DNA from: Syntrophaceae bacterium
GTDB lineage: Bacteria; Desulfobacterota; BSN033; UBA1163
Direction of reading: 5' to 3'
Length of the DNA: 57,797 nt
Assembly: GCA_013388635.1 (NCBI GenBank)
Contig: JACAEX010000018.1
Coordinates: forward strand, 1-57,797
Part shown: positions 47-8,619 of the stretch, piece after piece
How the letters are laid out: the number at the start of each line of letters is the position of its first letter
How positions within the stretch are numbered: the stretch's first letter is position 1
Notes under the pieces: model-generated
Told to the model about the DNA's origin: nothing
Database searches by the model: none
What the model saw: only the letters and a program-made list of their open reading frames with translations
Made by a program: the position numbers and the translations under genes

Positions 47-65
47 GCTCCATCGGAGCATGAAG

Positions 66-521
66 ATGAAAAACCATGTAAGATTCTCCTTGTTCGTATT
101 CATCTCGGTGGTGTTTATTCCCATTCTATCTGAAGCTGAAGGCATCAGGTGGGAAGCCTATCAGTCGGGAATGGCAAAGGCAAAGGTGGAGCGGAGGAAG
201 ATCTTTATAAATTTTCATGCCGATTGGTGAACGTTTTGTAAGAAGATGGAGGTGGAGTCCTTCAGCCAACCCGAGATCATCAAAACCATCAATAACCGAT
301 TCGTTCCGATTCGAGTCGATGTCGACAAGGAGAAGAGCATTTCCAGGGCTTATTTTGTGAGAGGCCTGCCCACTTCCTGGTTTCTCGACTCAGATGGCTC
401 AAGAATCACCAACATCCCGGGGTACGTCAATCCTGAAACCTTCCTGATCATCCTCAAGTATATCGATTCAGAGAGCTACAAGAGTATGACCTTCAAGGAG
501 TATATGAGGTCACAGAAATGA
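66..521 (+). CDS. secreted thioredoxin-like protein, probable selenoprotein (UxxC)
   Basis: Reading from ATG 66 gives a protein of about 151 residues if TGA 228-230 (codon 55) is decoded rather than terminating. The N-terminus has a hydrophobic signal-type segment (FSLFVFISVVFIPI). The protein then resembles a periplasmic thioredoxin-fold domain: INFHADW, then UGA, then TFCKKME, and later a GLPTSWF segment where the cis-proline loop is expected. The UGA sits exactly where the first Cys of a WCxxC motif belongs, giving Sec-Thr-Phe-Cys. ATG 66 is preferred over ATG 60 because GGAG (55-58) lies 7 bases upstream of it. The likely role is an extracytoplasmic thiol-disulfide or redox protein. The alternative is a one-base nonsense mutation of TGT/TGC. 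Intact coding on both sides and a hairpin after the UGA favour Sec, but no sel genes lie in the window. Confidence 0.72.
242..263 (+). promoter_or_regulatory. possible bacterial SECIS hairpin
   Basis: Eleven bases after UGA 228-230 a small hairpin can form: GAA 242-244 with TTC 261-263, a 3-base bulge, GGA 248-250 with TCC 258-260, and loop GGTGGAG (251-257). Known bacterial SECIS hairpins lie at a similar distance and carry GU in the loop. The stem is short, so this is supportive only. Confidence 0.35.
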
Positions 522-2515: not shown

Positions 2516-2982
2516 TCGCTTCAGGAGACTCATCGACGCTCGGTCTTCTTTTCAAGTTTTCACCCCTTCTGGAGAGTTACTCAGGCATTAAGAAAACGAT
2601 TGATTTTTGCTCCGTGCGGTGGTAGGTTAAAATTAAGTGGAACGAAAAGTAATTCGGATGGAATCCGGGAGGTTATTGAGGGGAATTCTGTATGCCTCTG
2701 TTTAAAGAAGGGGTTTGAGTCGTTAATTTTTTGCTAATAGGCCAGAGGGTATTCGATAAGGCCAGTAGGAGCAACGGATGAACTGGCTCAAACTGTGCCT
2801 CACCCATTCACTCGTTTTTCTTCCGTTCGCAAAGTTTTCTTATCCTCTTAACTGCACTTCACAATTCTTTCTAAAAAGTGAACTCCATTGGAAAAGAGAG
2901 ATGTTGCACTGCAGGCGGCAAGGCTGTCGATCTCAATGAAACTGCACTCTCTAATATAGATTTCAGAAAAGGGGGAGAGTTA
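2516..2982 (+). other. non-coding stretch upstream of the first hybrid kinase
   Basis: No convincing gene, strong hairpin or good promoter was seen. A reading frame from GTG 2878 runs in frame into the kinase, but it lacks a ribosome-binding site and has low-complexity content, so it is treated as leader. Confidence 0.5.
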
Positions 2983-5331
2983 ATGGCCAAGGGGGGAAAG
3001 AGGCGAGACAGAGAGCTCTATGAGGCGCTCGTCCGCACAGAATCCGAGCTGAGGGCTACGCTTTACAGCATTGGGGACGGCGTGATCTCGGTGGATACTG
3101 ATGGAATGGTGACCATGATGAACCCGGTTGCTGAAAAGCTGACCGGCTGGAATGAAGGCGAGGCGCGTGATAGGCGGCTGGATGAAGTGTTCAATATCGT
3201 TAACGAGGAGACGAGGGTCCGGGTCGAAGACCCTGTAAAACGAGTACTTCGGAAAGGCACGGTGATCGGGCTGGCGAACCACACAATTCTGATCGCTCGA
3301 GATGGCACGGAACGTGCGATTGCAGATTGTGGTTCACCTATTTACGGCAAAGGTGGCATCATTACCGGTGTGGTGCTGGTTTTCCGTGACCAGACAGAGG
3401 AAAGAAAGGCCGCGAAGGTTGTGGCCGAAGCCCGCGCATTTGCCGAGAGCATCATTGCCACTGTCCGAGAACCCCTCGTGGTATTGGATGCCAGCCTCCG
3501 TGTCCTTTTGGCTAACCGTGCCTTTTACCGGGTGTTCGAGGCGGTGCCGGAGGAGACTGATGGCCACCTGTTCTACGAGTTAGGAAATCGCCAGTGGGAT
3601 ATTCCTGAGCTTCGGAGGCTCTTGGAAGATATCCTGCCTCAGAACACCTTTTTCGACGACTATGAAGTCGAGCACGACTTTCCCAAAATCGGACCGAAGA
3701 CCATGCTTCTCAACGCGAGGCGGATTTACCGGGAGGCAAATAAGACTGAGATGATTCTCCTTGCGATCGAAGACATCAGCGAGCGGAAGCGCGCAGAGGA
3801 GGAGCTGCGCTTGTCAGAGGAGAGGTTTAGGCAGTTTTTCAGGAACGCCCCGATGTACTGCTACATGGTCTCTCCCGAAGGCATCCTCCTTGACTTAAAT
3901 AAGGCTGCCCTCGACGTCCTGGGACATGAGAGGGAAGAGGTGGTCGGCAGACCGGTAGCGACGATTTACGCCCCTGAATATTACTCAAAGGTGGTAGAGA
4001 ATCTCGAGACCTGGGAAGAGACCGGTAGACTCGAGGAAGTGGAAATGGAGATCATCACGAAGACAGGGAAGAGGCGAACAGTCATCTTGAGCGCAGGTGC
4101 CGTGAGGGACAGGGAGGGAAAGATCCTCCACTCGATCTCTGTCCAGAGGGATATTACCGAACGGAAGCATCTCGAAGAACAACTCCGGCAGGCTCAGAAG
4201 ATGGAGGCGATCGGGAGGCTGGCAGGTGGGATTGCCCATGATTTTAACAATCTTCTGACCGTGATCAAAGGGACCTGTCAACTCTCACTTCTTGATATTC
4301 GGGAGGGAGATCCATTGAGGGCAAACCTAAAAGAGATCGAAAAGTCTGCAGAGAGGGCTGCGGACTTGACCCGTCAGCTCCTTGCCTTCAGCCGGAAGCA
4401 GATCATGGAGATGAGGGTGATAGACATTAATGCCGTTATTAAGAACCTCGAGAAGATGCTTCGGAGGGTTTTAGGAGAGGATATAGAGCTGGCGACTTTC
4501 TTGGCTGATGGAATCGGCAGGGTGAAGGCTGACCCGGGCCAGATGGAGCAGGTGATCATCAACCTTGTGCTCAATGCAAGGGATGCGATGCCAGAAGGCG
4601 GAAAGCTCACCATTGAGACGTGCAACGTGGAACTGGACGAAGAGTACACGGAGAAGCACTTTGGGGTCGAGAGGGGTGCCTATGTGTTGGTTTCGATCAG
4701 CGATATGGGAGTCGGGATGACGCCAGAGATGAAAGAGAAGGTCTTTGAGCCATTCTTTACGACGAAGGAGGTGGGCAAGGGGACAGGGTTGGGGTTGTCG
4801 ACGGTTTATGGGATCGTGAAGCAGAGCGGGGGGAACATCTGGGTTTACAGTGAACCGGGGCAGGGGACGACGTTCAAGATCTACCTCCCCCGCGTAGAGG
4901 ATCCTCTGGAGGATCTGAAGGAGAAGACCATTAAGGAGGTTCCGCGGGGAAGCGAGACCGTTCTGGTTGTTGAGGATGAGGATGTTGTAAGAAAGCTTGC
5001 TGTGAGATTGTTGAAGACCCAGGGATATAAGGTCTTGGAGGCATCGGATGGGGGCAAGGCCTTTATGCTCTGTGAGGAGTATAAGGGGCCGATTCATCTG
5101 GTTTTGAGTGACGTGGTGATGCCGGGGGTGAGTGGCCGCCAGCTGGTGGAGCGTCTGAAGGAGATTCACCCTGAAGCGAAGGCGCTTTATATGTCGGGTT
5201 ATACGGAGAATGTGATCCTTCATCACGGGGTGCTGGAGAAGGGCATCGACTTTGTTCAGAAGCCCTTTACCATAGAGACCCTGGCGAGAAAGGTGAGGGA
5301 GGTGCTGGATAAGGGAACGATGAACAATTAA
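2983..5331 (+). CDS. PAS-PAS-PAS hybrid sensor histidine kinase with C-terminal receiver
   Basis: A 782-residue protein without obvious membrane segments, so probably a cytoplasmic sensor. Order: three PAS domains (roughly 15-130, 155-275, 280-400), HisKA with phosphoacceptor His419 in GGIAHDFNN, HATPase_c (N-box [15 protein letters not shown]-box GKGTGLGLS), and a receiver with Asp710 in [10 protein letters not shown] and Lys in QKPF. It should autophosphorylate on His and pass phosphate to its own receiver; no separate output domain is present. ATG 2983 is chosen for GGGGGAG 5 bases upstream. The catalytic core is almost identical at DNA level to that of the next gene, with stretches differing at only a few positions, pointing to recent duplication or gene conversion. 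Confidence 0.93.
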
Positions 5332-5823: not shown

Positions 5824-8619
5824 ATGAGAATCCTCATCGTGGATGACAAGGAAGAAAGCAGGTATCTCTCGGAAGTTCTGCTCAAGGGGAGCGGGCATGA
5901 TGTCACCGCCACGTCAAACGGAGCCGAGGCCATTGAAAAACTGAAATCGGCTAAATTTGACCTGATCATCAGCGATATCCTTATGCCAGTCATGGACGGA
6001 TTTGAGCTCTGTCGTAGAGTCAAGAAGGACGAGGCCCTGAGACACATTCCGTTCATTGTTTATACCGCCACCTATACCGGTCCTGAAGATGAGGCCTTCG
6101 CCCTTAAAATCGGCGCAAGCCGTTTCATCCAAAAGCCTTGTGAGCCTGAGGCTTTTATTGCGGCCATTGAGGAGGTGATGGCAAGTGGGGCTCGTCGGGA
6201 CGTAATCTCTTTGCCAGCAGAAGTTTCAGATAAAGAGGCCTACAATGTTTATAGTGAGCGACTGGTAAGAAAACTTGAACAGAAGGCAATCCAGCTGGAG
6301 CAAGAGGTTCAGGCCAGGAAAGAGGCTGAATTGAAACTTCGAGAGAGTGAAGAAAGTTTTAGATCTGTGATTGAGAAGGCCAATGACGGAATTATCATCG
6401 CAGCCAGCGATGGGACACACCTTTATGCAAATCAACGAGCCTCTGAAATAACGGGTTATAGTGTTGAGGAGCTTCTTAAGATAGGCATGAGGGGCCTCGC
6501 CCATCCAGATGAAATTTTTAAGCTATCGGAAAGACTTAAAAAGAGACTTTCAGGAGAAGAGGTTTCCGGTCTTTTTGAGAGTCGAATCGTTCGCAAGGAA
6601 GGAAAGACAGTTGAGGTCGAAATAACAGGTGCGAGAATATTCTGGCATGGACAGTTTGCAGATGCAGTCATTATGCGGGACATTAGCGAGCGGAAGAAAA
6701 CATTAGAGGCCCTGAAGGTGAGCGAAGAGAAATATCGGGCCTTGGTTGAGAGATCACTTCAGGGTATCCTGGTCGTCCAGGACTTTCGCATCGCTTACGT
6801 TAACCAGAGGTGTGCGGAAATTCTTGGGTACACGGTTGAAGAGCTGTTATCCCTTCCCAAAGAAAAAGTAATGGCGCTGGTACATCCTGAAGATCAGGCT
6901 TTGGTTTGGGGAAGGTTTAGGGATCGTTTGGAGGGGGAAGATGTTCCACCACGTTATGAATATCGAGGGATAAGAAAGGATGGTTCGATTCGATGGGTAG
7001 AGATGTTCTCAAGCTTAATAGAATATGGTGGAAAACCTGCCGTGCAGGCCGCGTTCGTTGATATCACCGACCGTAAGCAGGCAGAAGAGCTGTTGAGACA
7101 GAGCGAGGAGCGGTATCGAGCACTGGTTGAAGGAAGTTTTGACGGGATCTTCATCCAGAAGGGATCAACCATCATGTATGTCAATAAACGACTTTGTGAG
7201 ATGCTCGGTTATGATCGGGGCGAATTGGAAGGGAAAGAACACTGGTTGGTCTACCATCCAGATTATCGGGAGTTAACCCGGGGACGTGCGAGAGCGAGGA
7301 TGCGGGGAGAGGAGGTTCCTTCTCAATACGAGGTTAAACTGCTCCGTAAAGATGGTTCCGCTTTTGATGGGGAGATCTTGGCTAAGAGGATCATGTTTGG
7401 AGATGAACCGGGCATACAGGTCTGGGTTAGGGACATCACCGAGCGGAAAAGGGTCGAGCAGGAGATGGCCTCTCTTCAGGAGCATCTTCGGCAGGTGCAG
7501 AAGATGGAGGCGATCGGGAGGCTGGCAGGTGGGATTGCCCATGATTTTAACAATCTTCTGACCGTGATCAAAGGGACTTGTCAACTCTCACTTCTTGATC
7601 TTCGGGAGGGAGATCCATTGAGGGCAAACCTAAAAGAGATCGAAAAGTCTGCAGAGAGGGCTGCGGATTTGACCCGTCAGCTTCTTGCCTTCAGCCGGAA
7701 GCAGATCATGGAGATGAGGGTTTTCGATCTTAATCGCCTCATCAATAACCTTGAGAAGATGCTTCGGAGGATAATTGGAGAGGACATTGAGCTGGTGACC
7801 TTTTTGACTGATGGAGTGGGCAGGGTGAAGGCCGATCCAGCACAGATTGAGCAGGCGATCATCAATATTGTTGTTAATGCGAGGGATGCGATGCCAGAAG
7901 GCGGAAAGCTCACCATTGAGACGGCCAATGTGGAGCTGGACGAGGCGTATGCCAAAAGGCACATTGAGGTCAAGCCAGGTCCTTATGTGATGCTCTCGAT
8001 CAGTGATACAGGGGTGGGGATGACGAAGGAGGTTCAGGAGAAACTTTTTGAGCCATTCTTTACGACGAAGGAGGTGGGCAAGGGGACGGGGTTAGGGTTG
8101 TCAACGGTTTATGGGATCGTGAGGCAGAGCGGGGGGAACATCTGGGTTTACAGTGAGCCGGGGCAAGGGGCGACGTTCAAGATCTATTTGCCGAGGGTGG
8201 ATGAGCCTTTGGACGAACTCAGGGAGGAGAGCATCAGGGAGGTGCCGCAGGGGAGCGAGACGATTTTGGTGGTTGAGGATGATGAGACGGTGCGGAGACT
8301 TGCGATTCGAATACTGAAGATGCAGGGTTATAAGGTTTTGGAGGCCTCAGAGGGGGACAGGGCTTTTCTTCTCTGTGAGGAGTATAAAGAGCCGATTCAT
8401 CTGGTTTTGAGTGATGTGGTGATGCCGGGCGTGAGTGGCCGCCAGCTGGTGGAGCGTATCAAGAGGATTCATCCGGAAGCAAAGGTTCTCTATATGTCGG
8501 GCTATACGGGCAATGTGATTCTTCATCATGGTATATTGGAGGCGGGGATTGAGTTTGTTCAGAAGCCCTTTACCATTGAGACCCTGGCGAGAAAGGTGAG
8601 GGAGGTGCTGGATAAGTAA
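5824..8619 (+). CDS. REC-PAS-PAS-PAS hybrid histidine kinase with C-terminal receiver
   Basis: A 931-residue soluble multi-domain sensor. Order: N-terminal receiver (1-120, Asp51 in LIISDILMP, Lys in QKPCEP), a helical linker, three PAS domains (roughly 175-295, 300-420, 425-545), HisKA with His573 in GGIAHDFNN, HATPase_c ([19 protein letters not shown]) and a second receiver with Asp864 in [11 protein letters not shown] receiver at each end allows input from another kinase and relay onward. ATG 5824 has GGAG 8 bases upstream. From HisKA to the C-terminus it closely matches the preceding kinase, while the sensing halves differ. The pair has therefore kept one core with different inputs. No response regulator with a DNA-binding domain lies nearby. 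Confidence 0.93.

Follow-up and report, generated by a model that had tools for sequence, protein, structure and literature searches.

A thioredoxin-like gene with an in-frame UGA at its first redox position is very probably a selenoprotein gene in a Syntrophaceae bacterium

We report that positions 66-521 of a 57,797-nucleotide stretch of DNA from a Syntrophaceae bacterium (the window) very probably constitute a genuine selenoprotein gene, in which the UGA at 228-230 would be recoded as selenocysteine (Sec) within a thioredoxin-like active site. Sec insertion itself is what we infer; the reading frame, the conserved TGA, the cysteine counterparts, the selection on both sides of the codon, the constrained hairpin, the complete Sec machinery and the predicted fold are direct observations. 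A first-pass annotation had read the gene as a likely selenoprotein, and the TGA kept in relatives, the machinery, the Cys counterparts and the hairpin support that reading well. The kind of selenoprotein is already known (UxxC, PF13098), and the window gene is a well-supported further member. Its features are as follows.

1-46, + strand: tRNA-Thr(CGU) gene, 3' part only, truncated at the contig start (Rfam tRNA match at 1-43; matches the 3' part of the intact tRNA in relatives)
55-58, + strand: putative Shine-Dalgarno sequence GGAG, 7 nt before ATG 66 (read in the sequence)
66-521, + strand: very probable selenoprotein gene for a 151-residue DsbD-gamma-like thioredoxin with a W-U-T-F-C active site (sequence, Pfam, alignments, selection, predicted structure)
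228-230, + strand: predicted Sec codon UGA, residue 55 (TGA in 5/5 family orthologues, Cys codon in distant orthologues)
247-264, + strand: putative bacterial SECIS hairpin, with stem UGGAGG (247-252), loop UGGAGU (253-258) and stem CCUUCA (259-264) (folding, synonymous constraint, Sec/Cys contrast, model rules of PMC13188914)

The UGA codon and its conservation

Translation of 66-521 gives MKNHVRF...NFHADW-U-TFCKKM...MRSQK-stop, with a single internal TGA (228-230) ahead of the terminal one at 519-521. The read-through protein matches the Pfam family Thioredoxin_2 (PF13098) at 59 bits, against a gathering score of 27, over residues 42-130 and thus across the TGA, and also matches Thioredox_DsbH, Thioredoxin_7 and Thioredoxin. 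The in-frame UGA aligns with the redox Cys of homologues, so that the UxxC motif reads U-T-F-C. These results bear out the first-pass claims that coding continues uninterrupted on either side of the TGA and that the UGA falls exactly at the first Cys of a thioredoxin W-C-x-x-C motif. Ordinary gene calling (table 11) lists only 246-521, the 91-residue fragment from ATG 246 that had been foreseen, and the active site of the protein is lost in automatic annotation. Among other read-through ORFs in the window, a scan for redox-motif UGA codons returned none, only plain gene ends. ATG 66, the start codon chosen in the first-pass annotation, is plausible because GGAG stands at 55-58 with 7-nt spacing; ATG 60 is also in frame but lies too near this putative Shine-Dalgarno sequence. 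A perfect inverted repeat, GCTCC-ATC-GGAGC (window 47-59), lies between the tRNA and the start codon and covers the GGAG.

A search of 99 relatives identified orthologues in four genomes of a sister genus in the same family (G006, G010, G012 and G016), which are 57-60% identical and carry TGA at the identical codon in 4/4 cases. The gene is present in 5/17 genomes of the family; the other 12 are without it, though all carry selA. Selection was estimated from the window sequence and the four orthologues by NG86: where dS is finite, dN/dS is 0.05-0.21 upstream of the TGA (codons 26-54) and 0.07-0.14 downstream (codons 56-148), several pairs involving the window being saturated at synonymous sites. 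These ratios indicate strong purifying selection, and no decay, on both sides of the TGA. The orthologues that keep the TGA share only 44-62% of their third codon positions; since the codon is identical despite this divergence, and dN/dS is low on both sides, its conservation goes beyond chance.

These observations bear directly on the possibility that the TGA is a sequencing error, or a recent nonsense mutation that has made a pseudogene of an ordinary Cys-containing thioredoxin-like gene. A single base change turns TGC or TGT into TGA, and the contig, part of a draft assembly, begins only 227 bases upstream of the codon. The same TGA is nevertheless found in five genomes of two genera whose synonymous sites are saturated, and with low dN/dS on both sides we consider an error or pseudogene extremely improbable; the conserved TGA refutes it for practical purposes. 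Random damage in close relatives, which the first-pass annotation had named as evidence against a selenoprotein, was looked for and the opposite was found.

Outside the family, homologues that are 38-41% identical (L026, L027 and L051, alignment A1) have Cys in place of the UGA, in the motifs WCHYC, WCPAC and WCTFC; a search for homologues with Cys at codon 55 had been proposed in the first-pass annotation, and these more distant orthologues have it. They also help to judge whether the UGA is a true stop that separates a 54-residue leader from a 91-residue protein starting at ATG 246, with no Sec involved. That ATG is in frame and is kept in the orthologues as M61. Such an arrangement, however, would split the thioredoxin domain inside its active-site motif, place the start past the CxxC and put the first strands and the signal-like N-terminus on a peptide of their own. 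In addition, W54, U/C55 and C58 form a single motif that is conserved as a whole in the Cys homologues, purifying selection acts on both parts as on one domain, and the predicted fold is a single unit. A true stop is thus scarcely credible, and we retain the reading of UGA as Sec.

Sec machinery and the candidate SECIS hairpin

The source genome (G000; 3.42 Mb, 106 contigs, 95% complete) contains the complete set of genes for Sec decoding whose absence, in the first-pass annotation, was to count against the selenoprotein. Matches above cut-off were obtained for selA (contig C20, 622 bits), selB (contig C23, 373 bits), selD (contig C44, 391 bits) and selC, the last as a tRNA-Sec on contig C20 (81 bits) on which ARAGORN agrees. 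The SelD gene has an in-frame TGA of its own, in the context VKKAG-U-AAK (L064:3098-4084, - strand, extended to the upstream TGA, on contig C44). Sec-containing SelD is a listed selenoprotein found in many Sec-decoding bacteria. A cysteine-desulfurase-like gene lies near selD on the same contig (L064). The genome also encodes a second thioredoxin-like family with an in-frame TGA (L062:1956-2555, + strand, contig C51), a protein of about 200 residues in which PG-U-IGC-KQM is followed by a BamD/TPR-like tail. Members of this family are also present at L047, L048, L050, L146 and L148, with one TGA in many genomes of the phylum, and no NCBIfam model matches it above its cut-off.

The machinery also bears on whether the UGA is read through in some other way, by a near-cognate tRNA or by genome-wide reassignment of UGA to Trp or Gly, to give a residue other than Sec. 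The sequence alone is compatible with another tRNA. Against this, other genes of the window end normally at TGA, read-through candidates being plain gene ends; the dedicated Sec machinery is complete; and the UGA stands at the catalytic Cys, as it does in three other lineages. We therefore regard non-Sec read-through as highly improbable, and Sec as the residue that UGA 228-230 most likely specifies.

A SECIS-type hairpin, expected near the TGA if Sec is inserted, is present at 247-264. The published bSECIS model (PMC13188914) specifies a loop of 3-9 nt, a stem of 4-16 bp, a G in loop positions 1-2, a UGA-to-loop distance of 16-37 nt and an MFE <= -7.5 kcal/mol. The hairpin fits the loop, stem, G-position and spacing rules (UGGAGU loop, 6-bp stem, G at loop position 2, 22 nt), and its energy of -6.8 kcal/mol falls narrowly outside the -7.5 rule, as calculated with ViennaRNA on 48 nt, where the published tool may fold another stretch. 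The same calculation yields -5.7 to -10.7 kcal/mol in the four orthologues. Dinucleotide shuffles fold as well as the window hairpin, and because stability alone is therefore uninformative, the case for a SECIS element rests on synonymous constraint and on the contrast between Sec and Cys sequences.

With regard to constraint, third-position diversity among the five sequences is the lowest of the gene over codons 61-68, and conserved degenerate columns use one codon in all five sequences at 5/6 positions in codons 59-66 as compared to 13/52 elsewhere (Fisher p=0.009). Neither the codon freezing nor the mean hairpin energy was matched by any of 2000 synonymous shuffles (0/2000 for each), which ignore the relatedness of the five sequences; for the window sequence alone, 24/1000 synonymous shuffles fold as well. 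With regard to contrast, a loose hairpin rule separates the two groups poorly, as it is passed by 11/11 Sec rows and 31/57 Cys rows, whereas a strict rule (6-nt loop, G second, U last; NGNNNU), set after viewing the Sec rows, is passed by 9/11 Sec rows and 2/57 Cys rows (p=6e-8). The two Sec rows that fail it form this hairpin too, with one additional closing pair, the script having picked another register of equal or longer stem.

Genomic setting, predicted function and known families

The gene directly follows a tRNA. The Rfam tRNA match at 1-43 scores 23.4 bits and is 5'-incomplete, and it lies below the gathering score because the gene is truncated at the contig start; in L022, L023 and L025, the sequence of 1-46 recurs as the 3' portion of an intact tRNA-Thr(CGT) that immediately precedes the orthologue. 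The distance from the end of the tRNA to the start codon is 9-13 bases in 3/4 relatives and 19 bases in the window. As the gene begins 9-19 bases past tRNA-Thr(CGU) in 4/5 genomes, the two are probably cotranscribed, with tRNA processing then releasing the message of the gene, which would be an unusual expression arrangement. Downstream, genes of the GNAT and phosphofructokinase types are present in 5/5 genomes. In four relatives (L065, L066, L067 and L068), the thioredoxin and GNAT genes are separated by an opposite-strand gene of some 500 codons, which the window lacks (521-727). Further along the window, neighbouring PAS/histidine-kinase/receiver proteins (2878-5331 and 5824-8619) share nearly identical stretches in their C-terminal halves, which suggests that the two genes arose by duplication.

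The predicted structure of the read-through protein is a thioredoxin fold (pLDDT 89.4) with U55 just before the helix formed by residues 56-64, and its best PDB matches are DsbD-gamma and DsbH (1uc7, 2fwg, 2ju5) and a Thermus thioredoxin. The N-terminus resembles a signal peptide, as judged by eye, and pLDDT is low over about the first 20 residues; from the N-terminus, the protein is likely secreted or periplasmic. We consider it probably a disulfide reductase acting outside the cytoplasm. No redox gene adjoins 66-521. The source genome encodes two DsbD_TM-type (CcdA/DsbD-type) proteins of about 279 residues, on contigs C52 and C71, which by family knowledge we take to be plausible electron donors.

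In the mechanism we propose, SelB carrying Sec-tRNA(Sec) would bind the hairpin at 247-264, leading to recoding of UGA 228-230 as Sec. The product would be a protein of 151 residues, probably exported, that has a DsbD-gamma-like thioredoxin fold with W-U-T-F-C as its active site. By established thioredoxin chemistry, the selenolate of U55 would attack substrate disulfides and C58 would resolve the mixed selenenylsulfide, after which a membrane electron carrier, possibly one or other of the CcdA/DsbD-type proteins, would reduce the pair again. The same selenoprotein might instead do another job, as a peroxidase-like, metal- or selenium-handling, or cytochrome-c-maturation thioredoxin. UxxC sites can serve several redox chemistries, and the adjoining genes give no redox context. 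We consider such a role unlikely, but deserving of some weight, as the protein is nearest, in sequence as well as in fold, to DsbD-gamma, DsbH and thioredoxin domains, and the cis-Pro candidate P102 is invariant, as in thioredoxins. A disulfide reductase is the role we favor.

UxxC selenoproteins with PF13098 appear as 'thiol:disulfide interchange protein' on published lists (PMC13188914, PMC9312934), and selenoproteins of that name have been reported from the deltaproteobacterial Geobacter and Syntrophus (PMC1794560); the GOS study has 'Trx-like 2', cd02953 (PMC2398784). This family (for example WP_011366075.1) shares PF13098 and a UxxC with Sec first with the window protein, but it is defined in the papers only at the domain level, and the likeness drawn here is one of domain and motif; the label would also suit the approximately 200-residue Trx-plus-repeat Sec family found in this genome (L062). 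Sec-containing thioredoxin (Trx, PF00085, UxxC) has the same fold and the same placement of Sec at the first redox position, whereas the window protein has a signal-peptide-like N-terminus and WUTFC instead of WxGPC, and it scores 36.8 bits with the TrxA-type model TIGR01068 (cut-off 96.8). Its best NCBIfam match is to the C-terminal thioredoxin-like part of TsoB, a rhodanese/DsbD fusion-like selenoprotein (NF045694; 74 bits, cut-off 805), but TsoB is a 572-position fusion and the window protein corresponds to the Trx-like part only, at 151 residues. In fold and sequence it is most like the DsbD gamma domain and DsbH, from which it differs in being stand-alone, lacking the DsbD membrane domain and having Sec in place of the first Cys; scores with both models lie below cut-off (DsbD, NF001419, 52.4 versus 330 bits; DsbH, NF043050, 42.7 versus 190 bits). 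No NCBIfam model covers the orthologous group of the window protein, and in the literature we found no paper naming it.

Repeated exchange of Sec and Cys

Searches were extended to 395 genomes of the phylum and to the order of G297 (46 genomes), to which G406 and G428 also belong, and they identified three more lineages with UGA at the same site: G297/G417 (YUGYC), G427/G428 (SUPYC) and G406/G407 (SUAYC). Each has a hairpin, GGAC-(CGUGAU, AGGUCU or CGGGAU)-GUCC, at the same distance from the UGA; the E. coli fdhF SECIS has AGGUCU as its apical loop. Distant matches flagged as having one TGA (L144, L145, L147 and L149) were rejected as Sec sites, being ordinary gene ends, and viral contigs contained only distant thioredoxin relatives. 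A tree of 51 rows, built with U treated as missing, requires four or more Sec/Cys changes; this minimum holds for the best tree and throughout the bootstrap range. A single Sec clade is rejected (AU p=1.6e-6). On these trees, Sec and Cys have been interchanged several times in the family, and the tree does not tell gain from loss.

It is an evenly balanced proposition that these sequences form an orthologous group, so far uncatalogued, of small DsbD-gamma-like thioredoxins that are exported, common in the phylum and for the most part of the Cys type. In such a group, Sec would have been gained or lost on at least four separate occasions at one and the same position, accompanied every time by a similar SECIS hairpin at an unchanged distance. 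The gene itself is of moderate interest, which lies in this repeated switching around it, and what is known of Sec insertion is unchanged by it. If the proposal is true, the group would be a natural replicate set for conversion of Cys to Sec: with Sec and Cys forms in close relatives and a hairpin for each Sec lineage, paired comparison could test by what route, and for what reason, Cys gives way to Sec in an exported thioredoxin.
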